Of a stretch of 64,000 nucleotides of DNA, positions 14,606 through 39,844 are shown in pieces. Position numbers and translations under genes: made by a program. The notes below the pieces were generated by a model, which was given only the letters and a program-made list of their open reading frames with translations, was not told where the DNA came from and ran no database searches. Position 1 is the first letter of the stretch, and every line of letters begins with the position of its first letter. Source of the stretch: Flexibacter flexilis DSM 6793 (GTDB lineage Bacteria > Bacteroidota > Bacteroidia > Cytophagales > Flexibacteraceae); the NCBI RefSeq assembly GCF_900112255.1, contig NZ_FOLE01000008.1, forward strand, positions 1 to 64,000, written 5' to 3'.

Positions 14606-14606
14606 A

Positions 14607-24276: not shown

Positions 24277-24708
24277 ATGAGAACGGTCGAAAACAAAATA
24301 TTTCTGGTAGATGATGATGTTTTTCATCTTGAATTAATGGAGCATATTCTCCACAATTTTGGTTACACAGACGTACACAAATACGAAAATGGGGTGTCGT
24401 GTTTGGATAATATTCATCATAATCCGCAAATCGTTTTTCTGGATCATAACATGGATATTTATTCGGGTTATGAGGTGTTACGGAAAATCAAACGCCAGAA
24501 TCCCAATATTTTTGTGGTGATGGTGTCGGCGCAAGAAGAAATCAAGACCGCCGTAGATGCTCTCAAGCATGGGGCTTTTGATTATGTACAAAAATCTGGA
24601 AATATGATAGAAAATGTTGCAGATGTTCTAAAAAGAATTGAACTTGTAAAAGAAAAGTTAAGAGAACGAAAACCGACTTTTCTTAAAGCAGTGTTCGGTT
24701 TCTTATAA
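24277..24708 (+). CDS. Single-domain response regulator (CheY-like)
   Basis: A 143-residue protein consisting of one receiver domain: acidic pocket D12-D13-D14 (FLVDDDV), phospho-acceptor D56 (FLDHNMD), switch Ser in MVSAQEE and Lys in DYVQKSG. There is no output domain, only a basic C-terminal tail. It is the first gene behind sigma-54-like promoter P2 and sits 21 bases before the Wza-like gene. Its receiver resembles that of the NtrC-type regulator at 13262, so it may take phosphate from the same kinase, as a phosphate sink or as a direct controller of polysaccharide export. That role is inference. Confidence 0.9.
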   Translation: MRTVENKIFLVDDDVFHLELMEHILHNFGYTDVHKYENGVSCLDNIHHNPQIVFLDHNMDIYSGYEVLRKIKRQNPNIFVVMVSAQEEIKTAVDALKHGAFDYVQKSGNMIENVADVLKRIELVKEKLRERKPTFLKAVFGFL

Positions 24709-24729
24709 GGCAAACAGCAACGCATAAGT

Positions 24730-25479
24730 ATGGTAAATCTGAGATTCGGTGTAATTATTTTATTCTTGTTACTACTTTTTGGGGCTTGCAAAACTACTAA
24801 CTTGTTCGAAGCAAGACATGCAAGCAATCGGGTAGCCGATTTGGATAGCTTATTTTGGGCTGACTCTTCTTACGAATACCATATTCGCCGCGACGACAAA
24901 ATTACCATTAGCCTCTGGGGACACGACGATTTGAGCGTGGGCTCTACTTACGGGATTTATAACTCCAATGAAGTATATGGCAAATGGCTCATGGTGGACA
25001 GCAAAGGCAATGTAGAAATTCCGCGTATCGGAACCATGCACGTTGAGTCGCTTTCCATTACCCAAATGAAAGACACGCTTCGTACGCTTTATGCTCGGTG
25101 GGTGCGCGACCCCATCGTAGATGTAAAAGTGCTGAACCGAGAAATTACGATACTCGGAGAAGTGCGTGACCCACAGGTAATTACAGTGGACAAAGAACGC
25201 AATACTTTGCTGGATATGATTACGCGCTGCAAGGGTTTTGAGTTTTATGCCAACATCAAATACATTAAAGTTTTCAGGCAAAAAGGGCCTCACGTACACG
25301 TAGCCAACATCAACTTGAGCAAGGGCAGCTATTTCGACAAGCGCAATATTTACTTGTATCCAGGTGATGTGGTGGTAGTTCCCTCTAAGGCTTACAAAGA
25401 GTTTGACAAGCGGGTATCTACGATTATTCCATTTACGACCACCGTAACTGCCGCCGCCATTTTCATGGGGCTTTTCTAA
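24730..25479 (+). CDS. Polysaccharide export outer-membrane lipoprotein (Wza-like)
   Basis: A 249-residue lipoprotein with lipobox LLLFGAC at the N-terminus. The polysaccharide-export (Poly_export) domain is visible from YHIRRDDKITISLWGHDDLSVGS to VDVKVLNREITILGEV. An SLBB-type domain (ITVDKERNTLLDMITRCKGF ... NIYLYPGDVVVVP) and a C-terminal hydrophobic segment follow. It is expected to form the outer-membrane channel for the exported polysaccharide, partnered with the Wzc-like protein 14 bases downstream. The length is shorter than E. coli Wza (about 380 residues), which is common for Bacteroidota homologues. Confidence 0.92.
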   Translation: MVNLRFGVIILFLLLLFGACKTTNLFEARHASNRVADLDSLFWADSSYEYHIRRDDKITISLWGHDDLSVGSTYGIYNSNEVYGKWLMVDSKGNVEIPRIGTMHVESLSITQMKDTLRTLYARWVRDPIVDVKVLNREITILGEVRDPQVITVDKERNTLLDMITRCKGFEFYANIKYIKVFRQKGPHVHVANINLSKGSYFDKRNIYLYPGDVVVVPSKAYKEFDKRVSTIIPFTTTVTAAAIFMGLF

Positions 25480-25493
25480 CCCAAATCTAATTT

Positions 25494-27710
25494 ATGGGAG
25501 ATTCTTTTAGCTTTCTAAAACCCTATTTGAGAGGCTGGCCTATTATTTTGGGGGCGATGGTGCTTGCCTACATGATTGCGGCTAAATATCTCACTTACGT
25601 AACGCCCATGTACGAGAGTTCGGCCAAAATGCGGGTTGCCGATGCGCAAGAAGGCGTACATAACAGTAACTTGTTCAAGGACTTAGATGTTTTTTCGAAC
25701 ACTCACAAACTCGCCGCCGAAATCGAAATAATGAAATCGCGCGTGCTACTGACGAAGGCCATCAAAAAGCTACCGTTTGAAGTGGAACTGTACAGGGTGG
25801 GAAGTTTTAAGAAATATGAACTCTACGATGAGAGTCCTTTTGTGGTGCAGATTCTGTATTTTGAAGAAAAAACCAAAGACGTAATGTTGCCGCTGGTCAT
25901 TACCGAAAAGGGAAAAATTACGATTACTTGCCCCGACGGAAACATTGCTACTGGCATGATGGGCGACACGCTCAGTTGCTTGCATTTTCGCATTATCATA
26001 AAGCTCAACTACTCGTATATCCAGTCCAAAAAAGATGTGAAAGTAGCGGACACTTACGAAATGCTCGTCAAGAGTGAAGAAAAACTTTTGTCCGAAATTG
26101 ATAAAAACTTAGATGTAATTACGGTGGACAAAGACGTTCCCGTGATTCGCATCGCCTACAAGGCCTCACATCCGCACAAAGCCGCCGACTTTCCTAATGC
26201 TTTGGCGCGGGCTTATATCGAAGATTATATCGAAAATAAATACCACGCCGCCAACGTAACCGTTAATTTCTTGAACGATCGCATCAAAGACATTAACGAC
26301 CAACTCACGGCCACCGAAAACAAGATTTTAGCTTTTCGGGAACAAGAAGGCATCACGAACATTAGGCAAGAAACCGAGACGGATTTGCGCCAAATCTCGC
26401 AGCTCAAAATTCAGCAAACCAACCTGAAAATGAGCCTCGATGCCATCAAGCAATTGGAGCAATATGTAAAATCTGGGCAAGACCATTTTTTGGATTTAGC
26501 TCCTAATTTTGAGGCGTTTACGGATTTGCTTTCTACCGAAATTATCAAAAATATTAAGTTGCTTCAGGCCGAAAAAAAGGACTTGTTGCTCAAATACACC
26601 GAAAATGAAGAGAAAGTCCGCATCATTGATGTAAAGATAAAAGACCTAACCTCGTATCTGATAGAAAGTATTACCAACACGCGCCGCAACACAGAAACCA
26701 AATACAATCAGTTGGTGGACGACATAGAAGCCGCCGAAGCCGTTTTCGTAACTGTTCCCGAAAAAGAAAAAATGCTTACGATTATGAATCGGGAATTTGA
26801 TATTTACCAACAATCGTACAATTTCCTGAACAGTAAGAAGATAGAAGCCGAAATCGCTCGCGCCGCTCGCATTGCGTTTCACCGCATCATTACGCCTGCC
26901 ACCGTGAGCAAAAGCCCTGTTTCGCCGAACGTGGCCATTATCAAAATTGTGTCGGCATTGCTGGGTATGATGGGAAGTATCATGTTGATTATGGTGGTGC
27001 ATACGCTCAAAGCCAAAGTAAATGAACCGTCGAACATCGAAAAAAACACCATGATTCCGCTTTCGGCTAATATTCCCAAGCTCAAGAAAGATTTGATTCC
27101 GATGTATTTCCTGAATTTGATTGGCCAATGGGAAGTGAAAAAGCTGTTTAGTAGTGGTCAAATCATTGTTTGCAATCATTTTTCCCCAGACGAAGGCGCG
27201 GATTTTATTGTTAAAAATTTGGCACAAGCCTTTTGCTTTCAAGAAAGAAAAACATTGCTGATTCGCTTTGCGGAAAATGTTTGGGAAGTGAATAACCACC
27301 AAAATCCACCGACGCAAGTAGAAGATTATTACTGGGAGTTGCCTGTCAGGGTGAAGGATATGTACTCGTTCACTTCGGAGCAAATAAAACAGTGGCTCAC
27401 GAATTTAGCAGTAGATTACGACGTAGTATTGATAAGAAATGCACCCATTGGCGATGCCATTACGTTGCCTGTGATGGCGGCCACCGACCTGAATTTTATG
27501 TGTTTGGATGCTCGCCTCAGCCCGATGAGTCGGGTAATGGAAACGCAACTGATACAAGACGAATACAAATTGGCAAACTTTCATTTCGCGCTGAATCGGT
27601 CTGGTTATAATCCAAGTTTCGTAAAAGAAGTGCTTTTGTGTATTTGGGGTAACATAGAAAGAATAAAACGCATGGTTATCGTCAAGATTTATAAAAAATT
27701 CAAACGATGA
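25494..27710 (+). CDS. Wzc/GumC-like polysaccharide co-polymerase with degenerate BY-kinase domain
   Basis: A 738-residue inner-membrane protein. It has a first transmembrane helix at about 14-33, a large periplasmic Wzz domain with coiled coils (about 250-430) and a second helix at about 480-503 (IIKIVSALLGMMGSIMLIMVV). The cytoplasmic domain (505-738) has the outline of a bacterial tyrosine kinase. Where Walker A should read GEGKS it has DEGADF, and the Walker B region is VDYDVVLIRNAPIGDA instead of the usual DTPP. There is no tyrosine cluster at the C-terminus. It probably sets chain length and couples to Wza but cannot hydrolyse ATP in the usual way. The gene overlaps the flippase gene by 4 bases. 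Confidence 0.88.
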   Translation: MGDSFSFLKPYLRGWPIILGAMVLAYMIAAKYLTYVTPMYESSAKMRVADAQEGVHNSNLFKDLDVFSNTHKLAAEIEIMKSRVLLTKAIKKLPFEVELYRVGSFKKYELYDESPFVVQILYFEEKTKDVMLPLVITEKGKITITCPDGNIATGMMGDTLSCLHFRIIIKLNYSYIQSKKDVKVADTYEMLVKSEEKLLSEIDKNLDVITVDKDVPVIRIAYKASHPHKAADFPNALARAYIEDYIENKYHAANVTVNFLNDRIKDINDQLTATENKILAFREQEGITNIRQETETDLRQISQLKIQQTNLKMSLDAIKQLEQYVKSGQDHFLDLAPNFEAFTDLLSTEIIKNIKLLQAEKKDLLLKYTENEEKVRIIDVKIKDLTSYLIESITNTRRNTETKYNQLVDDIEAAEAVFVTVPEKEKMLTIMNREFDIYQQSYNFLNSKKIEAEIARAARIAFHRIITPATVSKSPVSPNVAIIKIVSALLGMMGSIMLIMVVHTLKAKVNEPSNIEKNTMIPLSANIPKLKKDLIPMYFLNLIGQWEVKKLFSSGQIIVCNHFSPDEGADFIVKNLAQAFCFQERKTLLIRFAENVWEVNNHQNPPTQVEDYYWELPVRVKDMYSFTSEQIKQWLTNLAVDYDVVLIRNAPIGDAITLPVMAATDLNFMCLDARLSPMSRVMETQLIQDEYKLANFHFALNRSGYNPSFVKEVLLCIWGNIERIKRMVIVKIYKKFKR

Positions 27711-28936
27711 AAAGCTCTAACCCAAAAATATTGATACTCGCAGACCAAGCAGTATTCAGTGGCACTAATTTTTTGCTCACGATTCTGCTGGCTCGCACGC
27801 TGGATGTAGCGGCTTTTGGTCGATATTCGGCTGTTGTGTTGGCGATGTATTTGATTGTCAGTGTCTTAAATGCGATAGTGGTGCAAGTGGTACAGGTGCA
27901 AGCCGCCGCCCAAAAAGATTCGAGGGCTTATATTTCCTTTTCGTTTTGGTTGCAAACGGTGGTTTTGTCGGGGATTTTGTTGGTAGGAGGCTTGGTGTAT
28001 CGCTTTTTGCCGCTTTCGTTGAGCCTCTGGACGGTGCTACCGCTGATTTGGGGCTTTGTGATGCACGATTATTTCCGCAAAACACTCATTGCCTTAGGCC
28101 GAACTACACAAGTGCTGACCATTGACATACTGGCCGCTGTGGCGCAAATCGGGGCGTTAGTGGCTTTGTTTTGGCTCAAAGGTTCGCTGAATCTGTATTT
28201 ACTGCTCATGGGAGTGGCCTACGTGCTGCCGTTTGTGTATGGCGTGTTCGTGTTGCGGCCTTTGCTGTGGAGTTTGCGCGGCCAATGGTCGGGGTTTGCG
28301 GCTCTGCATTTTACGGAAGGCAAATGGCTTTTGGGCTCGGCTTTGGTGCAATGGTGGGCAGGCAATTTGTTTGTAGTGGCTTCGGGCATTTATTTGGGTG
28401 CGCAGGCGTTGGGCGGGTTGCGTTTGGTGCAATCGCTTTTTGGCATCTTGAATGTGCTTTTGCAAACCTTCGAAAATTATGTGTTGCCGACTACGGCCAC
28501 GCTTTTGGCCAAAAGCCGCAACGATGCCGCGCATTATTTGGTACGGACTACCCAAACCGCAGCCATTTTGTTTGTACCTGTGCTATTGGCGACGGCCTTT
28601 TTCCCAAAACAAATTATGCAATTGGTAGGCGGCGAAGTGTATATGGAATACGGCTTTTTGCTTACGGGCATGGCCTGCAACTATGTGCTTATTTATTTGG
28701 CGCAACCTATTCGCATCAGTATCAGGGTTTTACTCCTGAACGAATACTTTTTCTATGGATATGTACTCACGTTGATATTTGCTTTATCAAGCTCAGATTT
28801 TTTACTCTCCAATTACGGATTAATCGGCGTACTGGTGGGGCTGCTAAGTTCCCAACTGATTCTGATTGTTTTCTGGCAACTCACTCTTAACAACAAAAAA
28901 GGCTTTTTCTCATGGAAATCATTCATATCATTTTAG
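27707..28936 (+). CDS. Polysaccharide flippase (Wzx-like, MOP superfamily)
   Basis: A 409-residue, highly hydrophobic protein with 11-12 predicted transmembrane helices, starting LADQAVFSGTNFLLTILLA, the usual opening of Wzx/PST-type oligosaccharide flippases. It should translocate undecaprenyl-linked repeat units across the inner membrane for polymerisation by the Wzy-like protein at 30439. It overlaps the Wzc-like gene by 4 bases and the next glycosyltransferase by 25 bases, so all are in one transcript. Confidence 0.88.
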   Translation: MKSSNPKILILADQAVFSGTNFLLTILLARTLDVAAFGRYSAVVLAMYLIVSVLNAIVVQVVQVQAAAQKDSRAYISFSFWLQTVVLSGILLVGGLVYRFLPLSLSLWTVLPLIWGFVMHDYFRKTLIALGRTTQVLTIDILAAVAQIGALVALFWLKGSLNLYLLLMGVAYVLPFVYGVFVLRPLLWSLRGQWSGFAALHFTEGKWLLGSALVQWWAGNLFVVASGIYLGAQALGGLRLVQSLFGILNVLLQTFENYVLPTTATLLAKSRNDAAHYLVRTTQTAAILFVPVLLATAFFPKQIMQLVGGEVYMEYGFLLTGMACNYVLIYLAQPIRISIRVLLLNEYFFYGYVLTLIFALSSSDFLLSNYGLIGVLVGLLSSQLILIVFWQLTLNNKKGFFSWKSFISF

Positions 28937-30012
28937 GAAAGGCAAACCCCGACCGCCTCAACGGGGTAAATAAGGTGGTGTATAACATGGCCACCGAACA
29001 AACCAAAGCGGGTATGAATGTAGAGGTTTGGGGCATTACGCCCGACCCGACACACGACTATCCCGCACGCAATTTCACTACGCGGCTTTTTGAGGCGCAC
29101 CAGAATCCGTTTAGCATAGACCGCAATCTTAAACTGGCGATTTTGGCTAAAGAAGATGCCGTATTTCATTTGCACGGCGGCTGGATTCCGCGTTTCAGTG
29201 CGTTGGCTACGCTGATGCAAGAATATGACATCAAATATGTGTTCACGCCACACGGTGCATACAACACTGTCGCGATGCAACGCAGCTCTTGGGCAAAAAA
29301 AATCTATTTCTATTTGTTTGAGAAAAAACTCTTGAGCGGCGCACGCAAAATTCACGCCATCGGCGAGAGCGAAGTGAGTGGGTTAAATCAAATTTTCCCC
29401 AATCAAAAATCTTTTTTGTTGCCTTATGGCTTTGAGTATTCGGAGCATAGCGTATTTCATGTAACCAAAAACATTGATTTTACGCTGGGTTTTGTGGGTC
29501 GCCTCGACGTTTATACCAAAGGGCTGGATTTGCTTGTTTCGGCTTTTGAGCGGTTTCAGTACAAAGTCCCGACGGCCAAGCTCTGGATTGTGGGCGATGG
29601 CGAAGGCAAAGATTTTTTGAGCCAACTCATTGCCACCAAGAATATTAGAGGTATTACGCTTTGGGGTAAAAAATTTGGAGCGGAAAAAGATATGCTCATT
29701 TCCAAAATGCACGTGTTTGCGCACCCTTCGCGCAACGAAGGTTTGCCAACTGCCGTGCTGGAAGCTGCTTCTTTCGGGGTGCCTGCCATTGTTACGCAAG
29801 CCACCAACGTGGCAGCCTATGTCCAAAAATATGATTGTGGCGTGGGCATTGCCAACGAAAATGTGGACGAACTCGAACGCGCCATGTTGGAGCTACACGC
29901 CAACCATAAAGGCGAACGCTATCATCAATTAGGGCACAATTGCGAAACCATGCTCAAGCAGGCGTTTGCGTGGCCTGTGCTGGTGCAGCAGTACAAAGAG
30001 CTGTATGCCTGA
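28912..30012 (+). CDS. Glycosyltransferase, family GT4 type
   Basis: A 366-residue GT-B glycosyltransferase. The N-terminal domain carries LHGGWIPRFSALA and FTPHGAYNTVA. The C-terminal domain has LGFVGRLDVYTKGLDLLV and the nucleotide-sugar-binding EX7E motif in HPSRNEGLPTAVLEAASFG. It should add one sugar to the lipid-linked repeat unit at the cytoplasmic face; donor and acceptor cannot be told. It overlaps the flippase gene by 25 bases and is followed by a repeat-containing gap. Confidence 0.9.
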   Translation: MEIIHIILGKANPDRLNGVNKVVYNMATEQTKAGMNVEVWGITPDPTHDYPARNFTTRLFEAHQNPFSIDRNLKLAILAKEDAVFHLHGGWIPRFSALATLMQEYDIKYVFTPHGAYNTVAMQRSSWAKKIYFYLFEKKLLSGARKIHAIGESEVSGLNQIFPNQKSFLLPYGFEYSEHSVFHVTKNIDFTLGFVGRLDVYTKGLDLLVSAFERFQYKVPTAKLWIVGDGEGKDFLSQLIATKNIRGITLWGKKFGAEKDMLISKMHVFAHPSRNEGLPTAVLEAASFGVPAIVTQATNVAAYVQKYDCGVGIANENVDELERAMLELHANHKGERYHQLGHNCETMLKQAFAWPVLVQQYKELYA

Positions 30013-30060
30013 GTGTTAAATTTTTGTTTTTGCATAAAAAATAATGGAAGATGCCACGCC

Positions 30061-30203
30061 TACGGCGTTCGTTCGTACAAAAAACGTATTACTACCAAGA
30101 TCCCAAGCCTAAAGGCTTTGTGATGCAATATGGTAAATCCGTAAGGATTGAAATCTTTGTAGCCAAAGGAATTTGAGATAGGATTCTAACGCCTTTAGGC
30201 GTG
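30061..30203 (+). repeat. Structured intergenic repeat, copy 1
   Basis: This 143-base unit is repeated almost identically at 30231-30372. It holds three small perfect hairpins, each with 5-bp arms and a 4-base loop: AAGCC-TAAA-GGCTT (30105-30118), AATCC-GTAA-GGATT (30136-30149) and ACGCC-TTTA-GGCGT (30189-30202). No coding potential is visible. It probably belongs to a dispersed family. Confidence 0.85.
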
Positions 30204-30230
30204 GTCATTTGGTTTAAGCAGGTAGCAATC

Positions 30231-30372
30231 TACGGCGTTCGTTCGTACAAAAAACACATTACTACCAAGATTCCAAGCCTAAAGGCTTTGTGATGCAATA
30301 TGGTAAATCCGTAAGGATTGAAATCTTGGTAGCCAAAGGAATTGAGATAGGATTCTAACGCCTTTAGGCGTG
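30231..30372 (+). repeat. Structured intergenic repeat, copy 2
   Basis: Same unit as 30061-30203, in the same orientation, with a one-base deletion (ATTGAG instead of ATTTGAG) and a few substitutions. The three hairpins are all preserved. The 27-base spacer between copies is unrelated. Together the two copies fill most of the gap 30013-30438 inside the polysaccharide locus. Confidence 0.85.
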
Positions 30373-30438
30373 ACATCTTCAATGCAAAATATTGGTTTGA
30401 TAATTTGATTGATATTTAAACCCCATGACATAGAGTCT

Positions 30439-31734
30439 ATGAAAGCGAAAACACGCGAAGAACGAAACGCCGCCTTTTTTGCCAAAACCAACTGGCAATT
30501 GTTCTTGATTTTGCTGCTGATGGTGGCGTGCTTTTTTACGTGGAGCGAAAACGTGGTGATTACCAGAGGCATCAAAGTTGTTGGCCGTTTGGGAATGCTC
30601 TACGCGTCGTATTACGTGTACAAAAGCATTATCAACTATGGCGCGGTGGACTCGCTCAAAGTGCATAATCCGCTTTCCAGTGCGTTTTATGGTATTTATT
30701 TGCTCATTGGTTTTGCCTCGTTTATGTGGAGTACCAATGTCGGATACAGCTCTTTGCAGTGGTTTATGACCTCCCAAACCCTCGTGTTTTGCTATTATTT
30801 TGTCAAAAGTCTGTACTTGCTCGACCACTTTTTCCCAGAACATCCTATCCGAATGTTTAATTTAGTCGGCAATACATCTTTTCTCCTGATTTTGGTTTTT
30901 GTGGTAGGAATGTGGGTGAATCCTGATGCGTTTTATCGGCTCACGCACGGCGGGGAAGAGGCTCGTTTGGGTGGCTACATGATGAATCCCAATGAGTTAG
31001 GAATGTTGGCGGGGATTGGCGTGGCGGGTTTGCTGTTCGACATTCGCCGAAATCATCGCCGCGTCTGGACGGTTGTCAAACTGCTGGTGTTGTTCTATGG
31101 CCTCATGGCAACGGGTTCGCGCTCTTCGTTGATTGGGGCTTTGCTTATTATAGGGTTTCATGTGTTGCAGTCCGAACAAAAACAATTTGCAATTGCGGCT
31201 ATTATCGTCATGGCATTGGTTTCGCCGATTGCCATTTATAAAGTGGTACTCAAAGACGGCGACCCCGAACGCATGGAAGAAGTCATGAGCATGACGGGAC
31301 GTTTACCGTTTTGGCAAGCTCTCATTAATGAAGGTTTGCCTCGTGAGCCGCTCTTGGGTTTTGGTTTTATGCGCATCGACTACAAAGAATTTTTTCAGAG
31401 TACGCACACGTATCCTGGCAAAATGACGCATAACACGTTTATGCAAGTGCTCATGAATCTGGGTTTTATTGGCCTGACGATGGTGTTTTTTCAGATAGTT
31501 TTTACGGTTCGTGGGATTTTGGCAGAAAACAACGAGAAAAAACTCATGCTGTTTAGTATGCTCATCCCGATTGTGATAAACTCGTTCACGGAATTTGGCA
31601 TTTATGGCGAGTCCAACTATGGTATTTTATTTTACCAATTGGTCATTTTATATATTTCCTTTAAGGCTTCGTCTATCATTACGCCTGCCCAACGCGTGCA
31701 TTTGCGCAAGCGTCGGCCAGACCTAACGGTATAG
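30439..31734 (+). CDS. O-antigen ligase/polymerase-like membrane protein (Wzy)
   Basis: A 431-residue protein with about 10 transmembrane helices and a large periplasmic loop. The stretch GGYMMNPNELGMLAGIG followed by MATGSRSSLIGALLIIGF is the signature of the O-antigen ligase/polymerase (Wzy_C) family. With Wzx and the Wzc-like protein in the same locus, polymerase is the likelier role. I chose ATG 30439 (MKAKTREERN); the frame is open from a TTG at 30409, but that would add a non-conserved tail. A repeat pair separates it from the upstream glycosyltransferase. Confidence 0.87.
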   Translation: MKAKTREERNAAFFAKTNWQLFLILLLMVACFFTWSENVVITRGIKVVGRLGMLYASYYVYKSIINYGAVDSLKVHNPLSSAFYGIYLLIGFASFMWSTNVGYSSLQWFMTSQTLVFCYYFVKSLYLLDHFFPEHPIRMFNLVGNTSFLLILVFVVGMWVNPDAFYRLTHGGEEARLGGYMMNPNELGMLAGIGVAGLLFDIRRNHRRVWTVVKLLVLFYGLMATGSRSSLIGALLIIGFHVLQSEQKQFAIAAIIVMALVSPIAIYKVVLKDGDPERMEEVMSMTGRLPFWQALINEGLPREPLLGFGFMRIDYKEFFQSTHTYPGKMTHNTFMQVLMNLGFIGLTMVFFQIVFTVRGILAENNEKKLMLFSMLIPIVINSFTEFGIYGESNYGILFYQLVILYISFKASSIITPAQRVHLRKRRPDLTV

Positions 31735-31759
31735 CGATTCTTCCATATTTTATTTTTCT

Positions 31760-31774
31760 GTCCATATTCTGGAA
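31760..31774 (+). promoter_or_regulatory. Candidate upstream activator site 3
   Basis: GTCCATATTCTGGAA matches site 2 at 12 of 15 positions. Its centre is 76 bp upstream of the -12 element at 31842-31843. A half-site TTCCATA is at 31741. Confidence 0.4.
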
Positions 31775-31828
31775 AAAAAATGTTGTTTTTGTTTTTGTAA
31801 ATAATTGAAAATTAGTGCTTTGTGATAT

Positions 31829-31844
31829 TGGCAAGGTTTTGGTA
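31829..31844 (+). promoter_or_regulatory. Candidate sigma-54 promoter P3
   Basis: TGGCAAGGTTTTGGTA has the -24 TGGCA and correct spacing, but GT instead of GC at -12. The predicted transcription start is near 31855, before ATG 31881. Weak alone; supported by the upstream palindrome. Confidence 0.4.
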
Positions 31845-31880
31845 TTTTCCTTTACAACAACAAACAAAACACTAAATACA

Positions 31881-34274
31881 ATGGAAGATTTCTTATTTGC
31901 GCTAGGCCTTAGCCTCAAAAAAACCAGAGAAGGAGCTACTCCAATTTGTTTCTATTACATCCCAAATACTGACGGCTCTATTCGTTGGTTTTGGAATGAA
32001 AAAGCCACTCAACCACATTTCCTCAAATTCTACCACACAGCCGACTGGCGTTCTCGCTTGATTGCGGCGTTTTATCACCTTGTTTTTTTCTTCAAATTAC
32101 AACATTTGTTATTTGCCAAAAACCAGATACTGGCCTACATAGCCGACATGAATAAAATTGTTGGCTCAGACGCTTGGACAGATGTTTTTGTGTTCACGGG
32201 GACGGCAGGCCCCAACCGAAAACTTACCCTGTTTCTGCGCAATCAGCAGGGTAAAAGTTTTTTTGTAAAACAAGCCATTAGCTCCAACTCCTTACAGCTC
32301 ATTGAGCGAGAGAAAACCACACTATCATATTTAAATCACATTAGTTTATCACAATCACGCATTCCTTCGGTGGCGTTTGCGGGCAGCACTTTTCTGATGT
32401 TTGTCAACGAAAGCGCAGGAAAAACCAGTACCGACCGATTCGGGGCAGCACACCAAATCTTTTTGGAGGAGTTGCATCACCAAAGCGTGCATTTGGCCAA
32501 CACCAGCAAGTTTTTGAAACTCGAAAATTTGGATCGTCGCCTTGAGTTGTTGGGCGGTACTAAAGTGCCTGTGGGCATTGTCAAAAAACTCAACACGCTG
32601 GCCAAAGACCTTGCAAATGAGCAATCTAACTTGATGCTAAGTTACGCGCACGGCGACTTTACGCCATGGAATATGTTCGTGGATGCGCAAGGCAAATTGT
32701 TCGTGTACGACTGGGAACTGTTCCGCAAGGCTTATCCCGAAGGCTTCGACTTCATTCATTTTATTGTTCAAAAAGGAATCTTGATTGAGCGCAAAAACTG
32801 GGCGGCCATCAAAGAAGAAATCTACAATACTTATGCTGAATATCAGGGGGATATGGAAATTTCCATTGACCAACAACTCAAATGGTATTTGCTACTAAAC
32901 ACACTTAATCAACTGGAGATTTTCGCCGCCCAAGCCCAATGGCACACACAGGTAAACTGGCTGCTCAATACTTGGAACGATGCTTTGAGCGATATTCTTT
33001 CCGCCAAACACCAAACGCGCCCGTTGATTATCAGGGATTTGTTCGACTGGCTTTCGGCCAAACAATACGGTACACTCAAACTCGAATTGCCTAATGTGGA
33101 GCTTTTGCCTGTTACTTCGGATTTAGATATTTGCCTGAATCGCGCTGATGCCTTGCAAGCCTTTGCGTATTTCTCCAAACATTCGTTGGTTGCCAAACTC
33201 ATTGTGGTTAAAGGTTTTACCGTGTCGCGCGTTACGCTTTTGCTTCGCGACGGAGGTATTTTGCACGTGGATTTTATTCACCAATGGCGACGCAAATACA
33301 CACAATTTGGCTTGCTGGGAGATGTTTTGGCCAAAACCCACACCGATGCGCAAGGTATCCGACACGTAAGCCCGTATTACACGGCGGTTTTTGTGGGTTG
33401 TTTTTATGGATTAAATAAATCACAAATCCCGTTCAAATACCTGCATTACAGTCAGTTTCTGGAAAAAAGCCGCTCTTCGCTCGACAATCAAATTTATGGC
33501 TTGTATCTGGGCGATCGCGCCAACCCTGCACGCCTGACACGCTATTTGCAAAAACGTATTTATAATCAGGGTTTTAGCGCGTTTTTGTGTAAAGTACAAT
33601 ATTGGTTGGACGTGGCCAGTAGGCTCATCACGACCAAAGGCTTTACGGTAACGTTTAGCGGCGTTGACGGCGCAGGAAAATCGACGGTGATTGCGCATTT
33701 GCGCGAGGAGCTGGACAAAAAATTCAGACGTAGAGTAGTGGTGTTGCGCCACAGGCCATCGTTTCTGCCGATTCTCAGTGCCTACAAACACGGCAAAACC
33801 CAAGCCGAACAAATCGCGGCCAACACGCTGCCGCGCCAAGGCCAAAATACCAGCGTGATTAGTTCGCTTTTCCGCTTTGGTTATTACTACATAGATTATC
33901 TGTTTGGGCAATTCGTGGTGTATTTCAAATATATTTTGCGTGGTTACATTGTGCTGTACGACCGCTATTATTTCGACTTCATCAACGATTCCAAACGCAG
34001 CAATATTTATTTGCCAAAATGGTTTTTGAAAATGGGTTATTTCTTCCTCAAAAAACCAGAATTAAATTTCTTTTTGTATGCGCAAGCACAAGAAATTTTG
34101 AAGCGAAAACAAGAATTAAACGAAAATACAATTCGCTCACTTACTTCCGATTATTTGGGACTATTTGAGTCGCTTTCTAAAGATAAAAATGCAAAATATA
34201 TTGCTTTAGAAAACAATCATTTGCCCCATACTTTGCAACATATTTCGGGCGAAATTAAAAATCTTGCTTATTAA
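31881..34274 (+). CDS. Three-domain protein: APH-like kinase, nucleotidyltransferase-like, thymidylate-kinase-like
   Basis: A 797-residue protein. The N-terminal half carries an aminoglycoside-phosphotransferase-type kinase fold with catalytic loop HGDFTPWN (H257, D259) and metal-binding D in VYDWELF. The middle part has the polymerase-beta-type nucleotidyltransferase acidic residues D414 and D416 (SDLDICL) and D464 (LHVDFIHQW), though the usual GS motif before them is absent. The C-terminal part has a thymidylate-kinase-like P-loop GVDGAGKST (594-602) and a DRYYFDF motif. ATG 31881 is chosen because a sigma-54-like promoter sits at 31829-31844. Location in the polysaccharide locus suggests phosphorylation of a sugar, polyol or glycan-linked substrate; the real substrate is unknown. 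Confidence 0.8.
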   Translation: MEDFLFALGLSLKKTREGATPICFYYIPNTDGSIRWFWNEKATQPHFLKFYHTADWRSRLIAAFYHLVFFFKLQHLLFAKNQILAYIADMNKIVGSDAWTDVFVFTGTAGPNRKLTLFLRNQQGKSFFVKQAISSNSLQLIEREKTTLSYLNHISLSQSRIPSVAFAGSTFLMFVNESAGKTSTDRFGAAHQIFLEELHHQSVHLANTSKFLKLENLDRRLELLGGTKVPVGIVKKLNTLAKDLANEQSNLMLSYAHGDFTPWNMFVDAQGKLFVYDWELFRKAYPEGFDFIHFIVQKGILIERKNWAAIKEEIYNTYAEYQGDMEISIDQQLKWYLLLNTLNQLEIFAAQAQWHTQVNWLLNTWNDALSDILSAKHQTRPLIIRDLFDWLSAKQYGTLKLELPNVELLPVTSDLDICLNRADALQAFAYFSKHSLVAKLIVVKGFTVSRVTLLLRDGGILHVDFIHQWRRKYTQFGLLGDVLAKTHTDAQGIRHVSPYYTAVFVGCFYGLNKSQIPFKYLHYSQFLEKSRSSLDNQIYGLYLGDRANPARLTRYLQKRIYNQGFSAFLCKVQYWLDVASRLITTKGFTVTFSGVDGAGKSTVIAHLREELDKKFRRRVVVLRHRPSFLPILSAYKHGKTQAEQIAANTLPRQGQNTSVISSLFRFGYYYIDYLFGQFVVYFKYILRGYIVLYDRYYFDFINDSKRSNIYLPKWFLKMGYFFLKKPELNFFLYAQAQEILKRKQELNENTIRSLTSDYLGLFESLSKDKNAKYIALENNHLPHTLQHISGEIKNLAY

Positions 34275-34304
34275 TTTTTTATTGAACAAAAACAACCGAA
34301 AACC

Positions 34305-35015
34305 ATGACACGCTTATTAGAATATATTATCAGAAAAAGAAACCCGAAGTTTCGTTTTGATGCCCACCTTTCGGGTGCAATGCTTTTAGCATTTATTTGG
34401 GAACAAATCGCGAATTTTAGGAGAGGTTGCATACTGTGTTTTTATCTCCGAAATCCAAAAATGGCCTTGTTGGGCAAGGGCGTAAAGTTCTTCAATTTGG
34501 CGGGGATTCAGTTTGGCAAATTCATGAAATTGGGCGATGGCGTTTACTTACGCGCCTTGGGCGTGGAGGGCATCAAGCTCGGCGATAACGTGAGCATTGG
34601 GGCGTATAGCAGGCTGGTAGTTTCCACGACGCTCAACCACATTGGCGAGTTTATCCGCATCGGCGACAACGTCGGCATTGGCGAGTTTGCGTATCTGGGC
34701 GGTGCTGGTGGCTTGGAAATTGGCGCAGAAACCATTGTAGGTCAGTACTTTAGTTGCCACCCCGAAAACCACATCATCGACGACCCTGACGCGGCCATAC
34801 GCTTTCAGGGCGTAACGCGGCAAGGTATCCGAATCGGGAAAAATTGCTGGATTGGCAGTAAAGTAACGGTTCTGGACGGCGTGCGCATCGGTAACGGCTG
34901 CGTGATTGCGGCGGGGGCGGTGGTTACCAAATCTTTCCCTGACAATAGCGTAATTGGTGGCGTGCCAGCGCGTTTGCTCAAAACTCGAAACGCCGAATAT
35001 ATACCAATGGATTAA
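34305..35015 (+). CDS. Left-handed beta-helix acyltransferase (hexapeptide repeat)
   Basis: A 236-residue protein with hexapeptide repeats (LGDGVYLRALG, IKLGDNVSIGAY, IRIGDNVGIGEF, IRIGKNCWIGSKVTVLDGVRIG) and the end motif NSVIGGVPARLLK, typical of WbbJ/WcaF-type acetyltransferases. It probably O-acetylates a sugar of the polysaccharide using acetyl-CoA. The N-terminus (about 60 residues) is basic and partly hydrophobic. It follows the three-domain gene by 30 bases. Confidence 0.9.
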   Translation: MTRLLEYIIRKRNPKFRFDAHLSGAMLLAFIWEQIANFRRGCILCFYLRNPKMALLGKGVKFFNLAGIQFGKFMKLGDGVYLRALGVEGIKLGDNVSIGAYSRLVVSTTLNHIGEFIRIGDNVGIGEFAYLGGAGGLEIGAETIVGQYFSCHPENHIIDDPDAAIRFQGVTRQGIRIGKNCWIGSKVTVLDGVRIGNGCVIAAGAVVTKSFPDNSVIGGVPARLLKTRNAEYIPMD

Positions 35016-35076
35016 ATAAAATGATATACGGTTTGTATTTTAAATCTATTGACTACTAACAAAACACACTCAAACC

Positions 35077-36300
35077 ATGAAAACCATATTAGCAACTGCA
35101 TACGCCATCAATCCTTACAAAGGTTCTGAAGATGGAATGGGCTGGAATTTTGTGGCACAAATGGCACGTTTCAGCCGTGTAATTGCGATTACTCGCGAAA
35201 ATAATCGCCCATATATTGATAAATTTATGCGCGAAAATCCCGCTGACTTTTACCAAAATATTCAGTTTTTGTATTTCGATTTGCCAGCTTGGGCGCGTTT
35301 TTGGAAAAAAGGTAGCAGAGGTGCCATGATTTATTATTTGATGTGGCAAAAAGGCGTTATTAATTTTATTCGCAAACAAAATATTCAGTTTGATATTGTA
35401 CATAATCTGAACTTTCATAACGACTGGACTCCCTCGTATTTGTGGCAATTCGGAAAGCCGTTTGTTTGGGGACCAATTGGCCATCACAACCGCATTCCGT
35501 TTCAATATTTACAATCTTATTCGCGCTTGTATTGGCTCAAAGATGAGCTTACGTGGCTTGTCAAAAAATCGTTTTGGAACGCATCGACTGGCCTCAACGA
35601 TACCATCGCCAATTCCAACCATATTTTGTGCATGAATGCGGGCGTTTCGACGCAATTGCAGTTGCCCGAAACCAAATATTCGGTAGTGCCGTCGGTGGCT
35701 ACGCAAGATTGCGGTTGGTTGCCTGTGCAGCCCGACACCGAGCAATTCACGGTTATTTCGGCAGGCCGACTTGTGCCGCTCAAAGGTTTTGATTTAGCGA
35801 TTGCGGCTTTTGCGCAATTTGTGCACCAGTTGCCAGCCGCCCAAAGAGCCAATTGCAAATTCAAGATTGTGGGCAGCGGCGAAGAAAAACATACCCTCAT
35901 GGATTTGTGCGAGTCGTTGCAAGTAGTTGAAAATGTAGAGTTTATCTCTTGGATAGACCGCCAAGAACTGCTGGAAATGATGAAAATGGCCTCTGTGTTT
36001 TTGTTCCCTTCGCACGAGGGCGCGGGCATGGTGGTAGCCGAAGCCTTGTCGTTTGGGTTGCCTGTGGTGTGTCTGGACAACGACGGGCCGGGCGAATTTA
36101 TCGACGGGACTTGCGGAATTGCCGTGCCGATTAGTAGCTATGAGAGCACTGTCGAAAAATTGGGCAACGCACTAACCACGCTTTTTGTACGCCCCGACAA
36201 AAGAAAAGCCATGCGCTTGGCGGCTCGCAAACGCTTTGAAAACCACTTTCATTGGGACGTGCGCGGCAGGCAGTTACAAGAAATTTACGAAAAACTTTAA
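35077..36300 (+). CDS. Glycosyltransferase, family GT4 type
   Basis: A 407-residue GT-B enzyme. It opens with ILATAYAINPYKGSEDGMGWNF, has VISAGRLVPLKGFDLAIAAF at the domain junction, and the EX7E region HEGAGMVVAEALSFGLP. Its start resembles a group of glycosyltransferases that begin with a GSE motif. It should transfer one residue during repeat-unit assembly; the sugar is unknown. It is 61 bases after the acyltransferase gene. Confidence 0.9.
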   Translation: MKTILATAYAINPYKGSEDGMGWNFVAQMARFSRVIAITRENNRPYIDKFMRENPADFYQNIQFLYFDLPAWARFWKKGSRGAMIYYLMWQKGVINFIRKQNIQFDIVHNLNFHNDWTPSYLWQFGKPFVWGPIGHHNRIPFQYLQSYSRLYWLKDELTWLVKKSFWNASTGLNDTIANSNHILCMNAGVSTQLQLPETKYSVVPSVATQDCGWLPVQPDTEQFTVISAGRLVPLKGFDLAIAAFAQFVHQLPAAQRANCKFKIVGSGEEKHTLMDLCESLQVVENVEFISWIDRQELLEMMKMASVFLFPSHEGAGMVVAEALSFGLPVVCLDNDGPGEFIDGTCGIAVPISSYESTVEKLGNALTTLFVRPDKRKAMRLAARKRFENHFHWDVRGRQLQEIYEKL

Positions 36301-36336
36301 ATAATAATTTTTTCCATCACCACTACTATTACTCCT

Positions 36337-37407
36337 ATGCAACCACGTATTATTGCCTGCCATTTGCTAAACGATTTTAGCGGCAGCCCCAAAATTCTGG
36401 CGCAAGCTCTGCGCGTTTTGGCGGACAATCAGCACCAAGTTTATTTGTTTTCGTCGTTCAATAACAAAGGTTTTCTTACAGATATTCAGGGTGTTAAGAA
36501 AGTAAATGTATGGTATCACTATGATGCAAATCCAATTTTTCGTTTATTTTTCTATACACTCACCCAAATGATTTTGTTCGTGTACTTGGTCTTTTTTTTG
36601 GATAAAAAAGATACCGTTTACATTAATACGCTGTTGCCGTATGGCGCGGCATTGGCAGCGCGTTTGCGTGGTTGCCGCGTGGTGTATCACGTACACGAAA
36701 GCAGTATTAGCCCGCCCTTATTGCGCGATTTTTTGGTAGGTGTGGCCAAAAAGATGGCTTCCGAAATTGTGAATGTTTCAGATTTTGTGAAAGAAGCCCA
36801 CAAAATACAACAAGTGAATAGCTATTTGATTTACAATTCGTTGGATGAGCATTTTGCCCAAAAAGCCGCCGAATTTGACAAGCCAACCGCTATGAAACAT
36901 GTATTAATGGCCTGTTCTCTCAAAATTTACAAAGGCATTTTTGAGTTTATGAAATTGGCCGAAAAAAACAGAAATCTAAAATTTCGGTTGGTGCTCAATG
37001 CCTCCGAACCAAAGATTAAATCTTTTTTCAAAAACTGCATTTTACCGCCCAACGTGGAAATTTTGGCCGCGCAATCGGATATGCACCCGCATTACCAATG
37101 GGCCGATGTGATACTGAATCTTTCGCGCCCTGATGCTTGGGTCGAAACCTTCGGCATGACTGTTTTGGAAGGAATGGCTTATGGTTTGCCTGCCATCGTG
37201 CCGCCTGTCGGTGGCATTACGGAAGTGGTACGCGATGGCGAAACGGGCTTTTTGGCCGATTGCCGCGACACGGACAGCGTCAATAAATGTTTGCATAAAC
37301 TCTTGGACAACCGCGACGCTTATTTGTCGTTTTCGGCCAAAGCCAAAGAGCAATTGCAAATGTTTAGTAGCCAGACGTTTCAGACCAAAATTTTGTCGCT
37401 GTTCTAA
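36337..37407 (+). CDS. Glycosyltransferase, family GT4 type
   Basis: A 356-residue GT-B enzyme with FSGSPKILAQALRVL near the N-terminus, a middle VVYHVHESSISPPLL segment, and the donor-binding motif ETFGMTVLEGMAYGLPAIVP followed by GGITEVVRDGETGFL. A hydrophobic stretch at about residues 67-86 (FYTLTQMILFVYLVFFL) may associate it with the membrane. It acts within the polysaccharide locus; donor and linkage are not predictable. Confidence 0.9.
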   Translation: MQPRIIACHLLNDFSGSPKILAQALRVLADNQHQVYLFSSFNNKGFLTDIQGVKKVNVWYHYDANPIFRLFFYTLTQMILFVYLVFFLDKKDTVYINTLLPYGAALAARLRGCRVVYHVHESSISPPLLRDFLVGVAKKMASEIVNVSDFVKEAHKIQQVNSYLIYNSLDEHFAQKAAEFDKPTAMKHVLMACSLKIYKGIFEFMKLAEKNRNLKFRLVLNASEPKIKSFFKNCILPPNVEILAAQSDMHPHYQWADVILNLSRPDAWVETFGMTVLEGMAYGLPAIVPPVGGITEVVRDGETGFLADCRDTDSVNKCLHKLLDNRDAYLSFSAKAKEQLQMFSSQTFQTKILSLF

Positions 37408-37431
37408 AATTTTTCCAAACCAAACCCAAAC

Positions 37432-37446
37432 TTCCGAAATATGGAA
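37432..37446 (+). promoter_or_regulatory. Candidate upstream activator site 4
   Basis: TTCCGAAATATGGAA has TTCC/GGAA arms with the same 15-base length as the other three sites. Its centre is 77 bp upstream of the -12 element at 37515-37516. Confidence 0.4.
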
Positions 37447-37501
37447 ATACTTCGATTCTTTTTTTATTATAAGCTATTGATTTTCAGTGTTGTATTCGTT
37501 T

Positions 37502-37517
37502 TGGTACGCATTTGGTT
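37502..37517 (+). promoter_or_regulatory. Candidate sigma-54 promoter P4
   Basis: TGGTACGCATTTGGTT shares TGGTACG with promoter P2 and has the same spacing, with GT at -12. The predicted transcription start is near 37528, 15 bases before ATG 37543. Confidence 0.4.
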
Positions 37518-37542
37518 ACATTTATCTGAAAAGCGAAAAACC

Positions 37543-38751
37543 ATGAAAAAGGAACAAAAAAACAAGTTGGCCATTATCGGGACGGTAGGATTGCCAGCCA
37601 ACTACGGCGGTTTTGAAACACTCGCCGAACATCTTGTCGAAAATCTAAGCGACCGTTACGACATTACGGTTTATTGTTCGGGCAAAAAATATCCAAAAGA
37701 AAAACGCCTGCGCTATTACAAAGGTGCACGCTTACAATATTTGCCACTTGATGCCAACGGCGTACAAAGCATTCCGTACGATACGCTTTCGATTTTGCAT
37801 AGTTTGTTTTATGCGGACGTGCTCTTGATTTTGGGCGTGGCGGGAGCTTGGATACTGCCTTTTGTGAAGCTATTCACCAACAAAAAAATAATAATTTCCA
37901 TTGATGGCATCGAATGGAAACGCGATAAATGGAGCAATTTGGCCAAGTTGTATTTGTTCTGGGCGGAGTCGTTGGCGGTGCGTTTTTCGCACATAGATAT
38001 TTCCGACAACGAAGCCATACAAGACTATACAGCAGAACGTTACGGTTCGTTGAGCCGCATTATTGAGTACGGCGCAGACCACACACTCAAGTTGCCATTA
38101 GACGAAGAAACGCGCAAACAATATCCGTTTGTCAATCAATCTTACGCCTTTAAGGTTTGTAGAATAGAACCCGAAAATAACGTACACATTGTACTGGAGG
38201 CTTTTTCCAGAACCCGTAAATTGCCGCTGGTGATTGTAGGCAATTGGGATAAAAGCGAATACGGCCAAAATCTGAAAGTCCAATATAAACACCACGCTAA
38301 TATTTTTATTCTTGACCCCATTTACAACCAAGCCAAACTGGACGTATTGCGCGGCAATGCGGCGTTGTATGTGCACGGACATTCGGCAGGCGGAACGAAT
38401 CCGTCGTTAGTGGAAGCCATGTATTTGGGTTTGCCTGTGATGGCTTTCGGCGTGTCGTACAACCGCGTAACAACCGAAAACAAAGCCTTGTATTTCAGAG
38501 ATTTGGACGATTTGATGGGCTTGCTCGAAAGCGTAGAAGCCGATATGCTCGCGCAGTTGGGTGAGGTGATGGGGCAAATCGCCAAACGCCGCTACACGTG
38601 GGGCACGATTTCCGACAAATACGAACGTCTTGTGGAACAGGCTCTTAGCCAAAAAGAAAAGCCAACGGTATTGCCTGCGGCCAGTGCCATGCAGTATTCG
38701 CAACTTTTGGATAATGGCTGCGCACATCTCAAAACCCTTGATAATTTCTAA
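37543..38751 (+). CDS. DUF1972-type glycosyltransferase (rhamnosyltransferase-like)
   Basis: A 402-residue GT-B enzyme beginning KLAIIGTVGLPANYGGFETL, the hallmark of the DUF1972 N-terminal domain found in rhamnosyl- and related transferases. The C-terminal domain has GGTNPSLVEAMYLGLPVMAF. The frame is open from an ATG at 37441, which would add a 34-residue hydrophobic extension. I prefer 37543 because family members start right at this point and because a sigma-54-like promoter and its upstream palindrome lie within the extension. It is followed after 13 bases by the WecA-like gene. Confidence 0.85.
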   Translation: MKKEQKNKLAIIGTVGLPANYGGFETLAEHLVENLSDRYDITVYCSGKKYPKEKRLRYYKGARLQYLPLDANGVQSIPYDTLSILHSLFYADVLLILGVAGAWILPFVKLFTNKKIIISIDGIEWKRDKWSNLAKLYLFWAESLAVRFSHIDISDNEAIQDYTAERYGSLSRIIEYGADHTLKLPLDEETRKQYPFVNQSYAFKVCRIEPENNVHIVLEAFSRTRKLPLVIVGNWDKSEYGQNLKVQYKHHANIFILDPIYNQAKLDVLRGNAALYVHGHSAGGTNPSLVEAMYLGLPVMAFGVSYNRVTTENKALYFRDLDDLMGLLESVEADMLAQLGEVMGQIAKRRYTWGTISDKYERLVEQALSQKEKPTVLPAASAMQYSQLLDNGCAHLKTLDNF

Positions 38752-38764
38752 ACCACTTACGGCC

Positions 38765-39844
38765 ATGAACCAACTAATGTTTCTTATCCCGCTCTTATCC
38801 TTATTGATTATTCTCTTGATTTTGCCCATGATTCGGGCTGTGGCTCTGAAAGTAAACCTAACGGACATTCCCAATGGCCGCAAAGTACACAGGCAACCCG
38901 TGCCGTTGGTGGGAGGGATTGCCGTATTTGTGGCGGTGAGTTTGGCTCTGACGTTTGCCATGTTTCACGGGTTTCATTTGGGCGAATACGTCAGCATCTA
39001 TTTGGGGGCGACGGTGCTGCTCATTATGGGCGTGGCCGACGACAAATGGGACTTGGGTGCTTCGCTTAAATTGCTGATACAACTCACGTTAGCGCATTAT
39101 ATTTACCTGCAAGGTTTTTATATAGATACACTTTTGGGCGTGTTTGGAATTTATGCCATTCCGCATTGGTTGGAATATGCCCTTACGATTGTGGTGGTGG
39201 CAGGTGTGGTTAATGCCTTTAATCTCATGGACGGAATAGACGGTTTGGCCGCGTCCATTGCCATTTTTACGCTGGCCATGCTCGGAGCGTTTGCGTATAT
39301 GCTCAACTTGCTCAATATCATGTTGATTTGTATGTCGATTATGGGCGCGTTGGTTGGATTTTTGTACTACAATTTTTCCAAAACCCGTAAAATATTTATG
39401 GGTGATGCGGGGTCGTTGGTGCTGGGTTTTGTGATGGTGGTGTTGGCCATTGCGTTGCTACAAAAAGCCGAACAAGCCGCAAGGCCTGATATTATGTACG
39501 GCGGTGTGTTTGCGGTAATGGCTTTGCCCGTACTCGATGCGCTGCGGGTGTTTAAAAATAGAATTAGAAGAGGAAAAAGCCCTTTTGCTGCCGACAAAAC
39601 ACATTTGCATCATTTGTTTTTGGTAACTGGTCTCAAGCACAAATACATTACGTTGCTGATTGCCGCTTTGCTTGTCTTCATTACGCTGATGGGCGTGCTG
39701 ACCAGCTCGCTGACGGGTGTAACGTTTGGGGTTCAGATTGTTTTGCTGGTGTTTAGCCTTACGACCCGAATCCTGAAAACCAAATCCGACATACAACACT
39801 GGCAAGTGAAAATCCGAGAAATGGAACAACAAGGCAATTTATAG
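38765..39844 (+). CDS. Undecaprenyl-phosphate sugar-1-phosphate transferase (WecA/MraY family)
   Basis: A 359-residue polytopic membrane protein of the WecA/TagO/MraY family that loads the first sugar phosphate onto undecaprenyl phosphate. Diagnostic motifs: GRKVHRQPVPLVGG near the N-terminus, MGVADDKWDLG (metal-binding Asp pair), NAFNLMDGIDGLA, MGDAGSLVLGF and KTHLHHLFL. It has about 11 transmembrane helices. ATG 38765 is used; the open frame upstream (from 38630) overlaps the glycosyltransferase gene and is not conserved. It closes the polysaccharide locus and is followed by a terminator. Confidence 0.92.
   Translation: MNQLMFLIPLLSLLIILLILPMIRAVALKVNLTDIPNGRKVHRQPVPLVGGIAVFVAVSLALTFAMFHGFHLGEYVSIYLGATVLLIMGVADDKWDLGASLKLLIQLTLAHYIYLQGFYIDTLLGVFGIYAIPHWLEYALTIVVVAGVVNAFNLMDGIDGLAASIAIFTLAMLGAFAYMLNLLNIMLICMSIMGALVGFLYYNFSKTRKIFMGDAGSLVLGFVMVVLAIALLQKAEQAARPDIMYGGVFAVMALPVLDALRVFKNRIRRGKSPFAADKTHLHHLFLVTGLKHKYITLLIAALLVFITLMGVLTSSLTGVTFGVQIVLLVFSLTTRILKTKSDIQHWQVKIREMEQQGNL

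Follow-up and report, generated by a model that had tools for sequence, protein, structure and literature searches.

Kinases and nucleotidyltransferases (NTases) that work as pairs or as fusions are known from sugar activation, as in FKP, HldE and AmgK/MurU, and anomeric and choline kinases make the phosphorylated intermediate (X-phosphate). The E. coli O9a protein WbdD belongs to an ABC-transporter pathway. The APH family is marked by an HGDxxxxN catalytic loop, a DxE motif and the Lys and Glu of the ATP site, and the usual pol-beta NTase by a Gly-Ser (G-S) or Gly-Gly (G-G) triphosphate motif behind the first strand. APH enzymes make phosphate esters and thymidylate kinase (TMK)-type enzymes phosphorylate them; in dTMP kinases the dTMP-binding segment comes after the DRY motif.

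Here we describe a protein that is a new combination of these known folds, that has unfused relatives, and that is tied to one conserved exopolysaccharide cluster. It is encoded in the window, by which we mean the whole 64,000-nucleotide stretch of Flexibacter flexilis DSM 6793 DNA that was analysed. Pfam and NCBIfam hold no name for the whole 800-residue protein, and no description of the APH-NTase-TMK architecture was found in searches of an open-access library (most subscription journals lie outside this scope). A figure legend in PMC12419801 names APH-type kinases, and two passages of a phage paper (PMC7432712) are unrelated to the trimodular architecture.

Three nucleotide-handling folds in one chain

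The open reading frame at 31881-34274 on the forward strand encodes 797 amino acids plus a stop; its ATG lies at 31881 and its stop codon at 34272-34274, and the same reading frame opens at a GTG at 31815. The chain begins with an N-terminal extension (residues 1-100, 31881-32180), in which alignments show conserved R35-W36 and F47-L48-x-F50-Y51, and continues with an APH/choline-kinase-like domain (residues 101-373, 32181-32999), a pol-beta-type NTase-fold domain (residues 374-486, 33000-33338), a helical part behind the NTase core together with a linker (residues 487-586, 33339-33638), and a thymidylate-kinase-like domain (residues 587-797, 33639-34271), which is the best-conserved part of the protein. 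An AlphaFold model of the whole chain, based on 81 sequences, had a pLDDT of 91.5 and a pTM of 0.90, the latter being in line with a well-defined assembly. The presence of three nucleotide-handling folds in this 797-residue protein is well supported by the predicted models. The first-pass annotation had read the same three folds from the sequence, and AlphaFold, Foldseek and VIA bear it out, the middle fold through structure and without a Pfam family. The catalytic residues that it had named (HGDFTPWN 257-264, DWE 277-279, D414/D416/D464 and the P-loop at 594-602) were all confirmed in the translation.

In the APH-like domain, the HGDFTPWN catalytic loop (residues 257-264) lies at 32649-32672 and the DWE motif (residues 277-279) at 32709-32717. 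The Pfam APH family (PF01636) matched the window protein with an E value of 1.6e-4 and 22.0 bits, just under the cut-off of 23.2 bits. That cut-off was exceeded by the fused relative L002 (25.8 bits) and by the split relatives L103 (24.4) and L104 (24.2); L011 (21.9), L009 (21.0) and L005 (13.9) scored beneath it, and L008 and L021 gave no PF01636 match. Across the window protein and the best 80 of 298 relatives, the APH-family residues K130, E144, D259, N264, D277 and E279 do not vary in any of the 81 sequences, and residue 257 is His in 75 and Gln in 6. Among the Foldseek matches listed for the whole model, the choline kinase LicA (4r7b, E 3.3e-6) was the top APH-fold entry, with other APH-fold kinases and thymidylate kinases listed as well. 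The best match of an APH profile to solved structures was also a choline kinase (4r77), and it was weak (E 0.0045). The domain thus resembles LicA and the APH family in fold, HGDxxxxN loop and DxE motif, but the window protein adds the conserved N-terminal extension and its Pfam score falls just under the cut-off. A small-molecule hydroxyl is the putative target of phosphorylation.

The middle domain of the window protein matched no NTase family in Pfam at E values up to 1, and a profile of its sequence found a single match among solved structures, to a Nudix protein (E 0.9). Folded alone by AlphaFold, this part reached a pLDDT of 94.4. All 50 Foldseek matches listed for the model were NTase-superfamily proteins, none with an E value below 1e-3, and VIA aligned it with JHP933 (4ok0; Z 10.4, rmsd 4.6, 155 residues) and with ANT(2'')-Ia (4wqk; Z 9.0, rmsd 3.5, 149 residues). 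The first-pass annotation had staked its reading on this domain having an NTase fold, and the fold is present in the predicted structure. The DxD...D triad, formed by the acidic pair D414-x-D416 (33120-33128) and the third acidic residue D464 (33270-33272), is identical in all 81 sequences (the window and the best 80 of 298). Columns 396-413 of this 81-sequence family alignment hold an invariant lysine (K400) and no conserved Gly-Ser or Gly-Gly. Fold and triad are thus shared with pol-beta-type NTases such as JHP933, ANT(2'')-Ia and NTP_transf_5 (PF14907), whereas the invariant lysine, the absence of the G-S motif and the lack of a Foldseek E value below 1e-3 set the domain apart. Since the G-S motif is absent, nucleotidyl transfer is not assured, and triphosphate binding may depart from the usual mode. 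PF14907 matched 7 of the 81 middle domains at E values up to 5 (best 1.8e-4) and gave no match to that of the window protein; in two plasmid records its single match was under the cut-off and lay elsewhere in the record.

The thymidylate-kinase-like domain carries the P-loop GVDGAGKST (residues 594-602, 33660-33686) and a DRY motif (residues 694-696, 33960-33968). Thymidylate_kin (PF02223) matched the window protein with an E value of 3.4e-7 and 30.6 bits, above the cut-off of 27, and in the VIA comparison of the whole model residues 586-797 matched 5x7j (Z 19.3, rmsd 2.9, 180 aligned). The 50 VIA matches listed for the whole model were thymidylate kinases only and are therefore uninformative on the APH domain. 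Mean pairwise identity was 59% in this domain and 33, 37, 36 and 29% in the other segments. The domain shares fold, P-loop, DRY motif and a score over the Pfam cut-off with the thymidylate kinase family, but it scored 26.5 bits against the NCBIfam dTMP-kinase equivalog TIGR00041, far under the cut-off of 83.25, and this curated score excludes its identification as a dTMP kinase. After DRY it has a highly conserved segment of its own, with residues of the type Y-F-D-F-I-N-D-x-x-R-S-N that differ from those of the dTMP kinase 3hjn and are invariant at many positions across the family. A conserved segment at this place that is unlike that of dTMP kinases suggests one conserved acceptor, which, on the evidence of these residues, is probably some phosphate ester distinct from dTMP.

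The fused protein is widespread in Bacteroidota

Scanning species genomes of bacteria and archaea yielded 298 relatives, the best 80 of which were kept as named loci. Among these 80, one came from a metagenome-assembled genome labelled Limnohabitans (L055), and the rest are labelled as Bacteroidota, Balneolaceae and Balneolales included. One alignment (A1) comprised eight sequences, the window's and L002 to L008, with the split L009 and the decayed L010 excluded; two others (A3 and A4) comprised the window and the 80 named loci. A profile comparison that gave a probability of 100 was disregarded, since the second alignment contains the window's own segment and its close kin.

At all 80 of these best loci the protein is one chain of 761-886 residues with near full-length coverage, and beyond the APH-family residues, K400 and the acidic triad, residues G594, K600, D694, R695 and R742 are likewise invariant in 81 of 81 sequences. 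A fused chain in 80 of 80 loci together with these invariant residues argues that the architecture is not due to chance. The fused architecture is thus widespread, and the same module is found as a gene pair too. In a sample of 395 genomes from the phylum, the full-length fused form occurs in eight, the window's counted; one further genome (G022) has a decayed form, and another (G047) has two adjacent genes at the same cluster position. Only the window's genome among the 11 of its own family has the protein, so the cluster is patchy in distribution. Plasmid pHsw1 (L105) of Hymenobacter swuensis, which is typed as mobilizable, carries the fused protein together with much of the cluster.

The protein belongs to a conserved Wzx/Wzy-type exopolysaccharide cluster

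The trimodular protein belongs to one conserved Wzx/Wzy-type exopolysaccharide cluster of Bacteroidota. In the window, all on the forward strand, the cluster opens with a CheY-like response regulator (24277-24708), its recurrent first gene, followed by a Wza-like polysaccharide export protein (24730-25479), a Wzc-like co-polymerase (25494-27710), a Wzx-like flippase with a weak Pfam match only (27707-28936, E 0.17), a GT4 glycosyltransferase (GTa, 28912-30012) and a Wzy_C polymerase/ligase (30409-31734) that is 42-64% identical to its counterparts in eight other sampled genomes. Downstream lie a hexapeptide-repeat acetyltransferase (AcT, 34305-35015), usually the next gene, two GT4 glycosyltransferases (GTb, 35077-36300, and GTc, 36337-37407), a DUF1972/Cps2T-like glycosyltransferase (GTrha, 37441-38751) and a WecA-like polyprenyl-phosphate sugar-phosphotransferase (38630-39844). 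Domain searches of the window genes at 24277-39844 recognised no sugar-nucleotide synthesis gene.

The order response regulator-Wza-Wzc-Wzx-GTa-Wzy-trimodular protein-AcT-GTb-GTc-GTrha-WecA recurs, with some losses and insertions, in Flavobacterium, Chryseobacterium, Balneolaceae, Hymenobacter, Pedobacter, Saprospiraceae and others. Genes at the 80 best loci of the 298 were predicted as longest ORFs with a simple script, and neighbours were labelled by blastp against the window's own genes, so that unrelated replacements were scored as absent. On this basis, all ten scored neighbours were present at 41 of the 80 loci, at least five at 70 and at least one at 79. Where at least 9 kb of upstream sequence was available (62 of the best 80), Wzy, GTa and Wzx were each found on the same strand at 56 loci; with at least 7.5 kb downstream (68 of the best 80), AcT was found at 63 and GTc and GTrha at 66 each. 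Wzy was the nearest called ORF upstream at 59 of the 78 loci that have one. In the reverse test, this Wzy type occurred in 9 of the 395 genomes, and all nine carry the protein (eight fused, G047 split).

The first-pass annotation had named homologues outside glycan loci with a different known role as evidence against its reading. We looked for fused homologues of that kind, and the sole locus of the best 80 without cluster neighbours was L068. It lies on a short contig of 8856 bases, of which some 350 bases are left downstream, and it is preceded by an FG-GAP gene; such a gene also lies upstream at L036, L069, L080 and L100, each with the cluster downstream. The decayed copy of G022 (L010 1480-3384, equivalent to L145 9239-11143) sits in a cluster remnant. 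Read by eye, it has lost its P-loop, and D414 and D464 are replaced. In the surrounding 18-kb stretch, Wza, Wzc, Wzx, GTa, Wzy, AcT, GTrha and WecA all went unmatched, and a search of the whole G022 genome did not find the Wzy type of this cluster. Decay of the protein where cluster genes are absent is expected if it works only with the cluster. The protein is probably soluble and dedicated to one exopolysaccharide pathway.

Several other features of the window were noted. A sigma-54 response regulator, a FIST protein and a hybrid histidine kinase are encoded upstream of the cluster (13262-19327), and several other loci have a related sigma-54 regulator at the distal end of the cluster. A pattern search for sigma-54 promoters gave 48 matches in the window, where chance alone would yield 46.3, and so no signal for the cluster. 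An FG-GAP/UnbV_ASPIC protein with a secretion tail is encoded at 19959-24068, and a similar ORF was seen in 15 of the 80 named loci. The gap between GTa and Wzy (30013-30408) holds two copies, 170 nt apart, of a palindrome-rich repeat, which, with 61 blastn matches in its own genome (itself included), belongs to a dispersed intergenic repeat family. Three LRR_4/DUF7619 proteins that are alike in build are encoded within 11 kb (2156-4588 on the reverse strand, 8378-10537 and 10701-13016 on the forward strand).

Unfused relatives occur in other polysaccharide loci

In G047, an APH gene is followed by a neighbouring NTase-TMK gene, and in G165 and G189 the two genes stand in the reverse order. 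On four Leisingera plasmids and on Agrobacterium leguminum p1, both genes lie close together and are non-adjacent; locus annotation came from one of the four Leisingera plasmids and match positions alone from the other three. The pairs of the Leisingera sp. M658 plasmid and of A. leguminum p1 resemble the fused form in comprising related APH and NTase-TMK proteins and in belonging to polysaccharide loci with a DUF1972 glycosyltransferase. They differ from it in being two genes, with one and four genes between them, and in the presence of rfbABCD, which was found with the DUF1972 glycosyltransferase in both annotated loci. The unfused genes are annotated there as "phosphotransferase" and "hypothetical protein". 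The Leisingera plasmids probably correspond to the biofilm plasmids with a "rhamnose operon" that are known from roseobacters.

On each of the five plasmids where the match spans 80% or more of the split NTase-TMK query, an APH match is present as well. In the sampled genomes, APH-profile matches occurred in 13, and 12 of these also had an NTase-TMK-profile match, in the fused protein or in a neighbouring gene; several rows of either profile were drawn from the genomes counted here, and neither tally is therefore independent of the set. That the pair stays together despite changes of order and fusion is a sign of joint function.

Partial relatives were also found. Five further genomes of the 395 (G117, G028, G079, G161 and G193) had an NTase-TMK-profile match without an APH match, covering the TMK part only; in G028 and G079 the match overlaps ordinary TMK genes, and the relative in G193 is a TMK-like protein of 272 amino acids that adjoins a Na+/H+ antiporter, outside a glycan locus. 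Streptomyces and Legionella plasmids likewise gave TMK-part matches and no APH match. In G355, an APH-like gene with a weak match (2.3e-7) adjoins a TMK-like gene that has no NTase domain, a pair that may be a separate invention.

Possible roles in exopolysaccharide synthesis

The first-pass annotation had proposed a pathway that phosphorylates and perhaps activates or modifies an unusual glycan component, a reading that is plausible. The three folds, the intact catalytic residues and the glycan locus on which that reading was built have held; the NTase domain, however, has no G-S motif and the TMK domain scores far under the dTMP-kinase cut-off. We tentatively favor, as quite possible though short of probable, successive phosphorylation of a conserved precursor followed by transfer, for which we infer the order of steps, the chemistry, the substrate and the product. 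The APH-like domain would phosphorylate a hydroxyl on the precursor, either a small molecule or a lipid-linked repeat; the TMK-like domain would act next, on the phosphate set by the APH-like domain; and the NTase-fold domain would act last, joining or activating the phosphorylated group through metal-dependent transfer. By this route, the repeat or its donor would acquire a phosphate-containing group ahead of flipping and polymerisation. This serial mechanism is supported by the three predicted folds, the three intact sets of active-site residues, membership of the cluster and the occurrence of unfused relatives in polysaccharide loci. Counting against it are the missing G-S motif, the G355 pair without an NTase domain, the TMK-part relatives without an APH partner and the fact that no sugar-nucleotide synthesis gene was recognised among the window genes at 24277-39844. 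A quite improbable variant is a three-step phosphate relay, in which the APH-like domain would make X-P and the TMK-like domain X-PP, from which the G-S-less NTase fold would place P-X on the repeat; if true, it would be a nucleotide-sugar-free decoration of a bacterial polysaccharide.

Other readings divide the labor differently. The protein might synthesise a donor in one chain, as FKP or AmgK/MurU do, with the APH-like domain making X-phosphate, the NTase converting it to NDP-X and the TMK-like domain regenerating the spent nucleotide. The LicA and 4r77 matches of the APH-like domain and the precedent of kinase-NTase pairs and fusions speak for this arrangement, which we consider possible but doubtful, as the NTase is of the pol-beta type without a G-S motif, unlike those of FKP, HldE and AmgK/MurU, and the middle domain is conserved far less than the TMK domain. 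That the protein is so strictly linked to this Wzy type (9 of 9 genomes), and that Wzy is the called ORF nearest to it upstream at 59 of 78 loci, would instead suit a kinase that phosphorylates a lipid-linked repeat or chain end and so gates flipping, polymerisation or length, in the manner of WbdD. We regard such a role as unlikely: the WbdD pathway is of the ABC-transporter type whereas this locus is of the Wzx/Wzy type, and the active sites of the TMK and NTase domains would be left unexplained.

If one or two of the domains were non-catalytic scaffolds or sensors, the TMK domain would be the sole enzyme. Its high identity (59%, against 29-37% elsewhere) and the lack of a G-S motif in the NTase fit this idea. 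Dead enzymes, however, seldom retain their catalytic residues, and those of each of the three domains are invariant in 81 of 81 sequences (the window and the best 80 of 298); we judge the idea very improbable. The chances are equally slim that the TMK domain serves nucleotide supply by phosphorylating dTMP or another NMP, which would lead to dTDP-rhamnose for the rhamnosyltransferase-like glycosyltransferase. The rfbABCD genes of the Leisingera and Agrobacterium loci would agree with such a supply, as would a window genome in which no PF02223 match besides the trimodular protein rises above the cut-off; against it stand the score of 26.5 versus 83.25 bits, the segment after DRY that is unlike that of dTMP kinases, and the confinement of the protein to 4 of the 24 genomes of its order and class with weak PF02223 matches, which shows that it does not serve as the housekeeping dTMP kinase of these genomes.

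The split and fused forms make function a question open to direct testing. Identifying the product would bring to light a feature of Bacteroidota slime that is conserved and perhaps phosphorylated. It would also explain what the genes annotated as "phosphotransferase" and "hypothetical protein" do in alphaproteobacterial polysaccharide loci.

Thymidylate kinases in the class of the window genome

PF02223 matches were weak at best (best E 2.7e-7) in each of the 24 genomes sampled from the window's order and class, its own among them, and the 75 sampled genomes of the phylum's other classes all had a match at about 1e-19 or better. The housekeeping dTMP kinase of the window's class may thus have diverged or been replaced. 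The trimodular protein was rejected as a candidate for this enzyme; the four genomes in which it was matched are G000, G082, G047 (split) and G022 (decayed). The window's own genome also encodes a deoxynucleoside-kinase-like ORF of 204 amino acids (L148 1423-2037).
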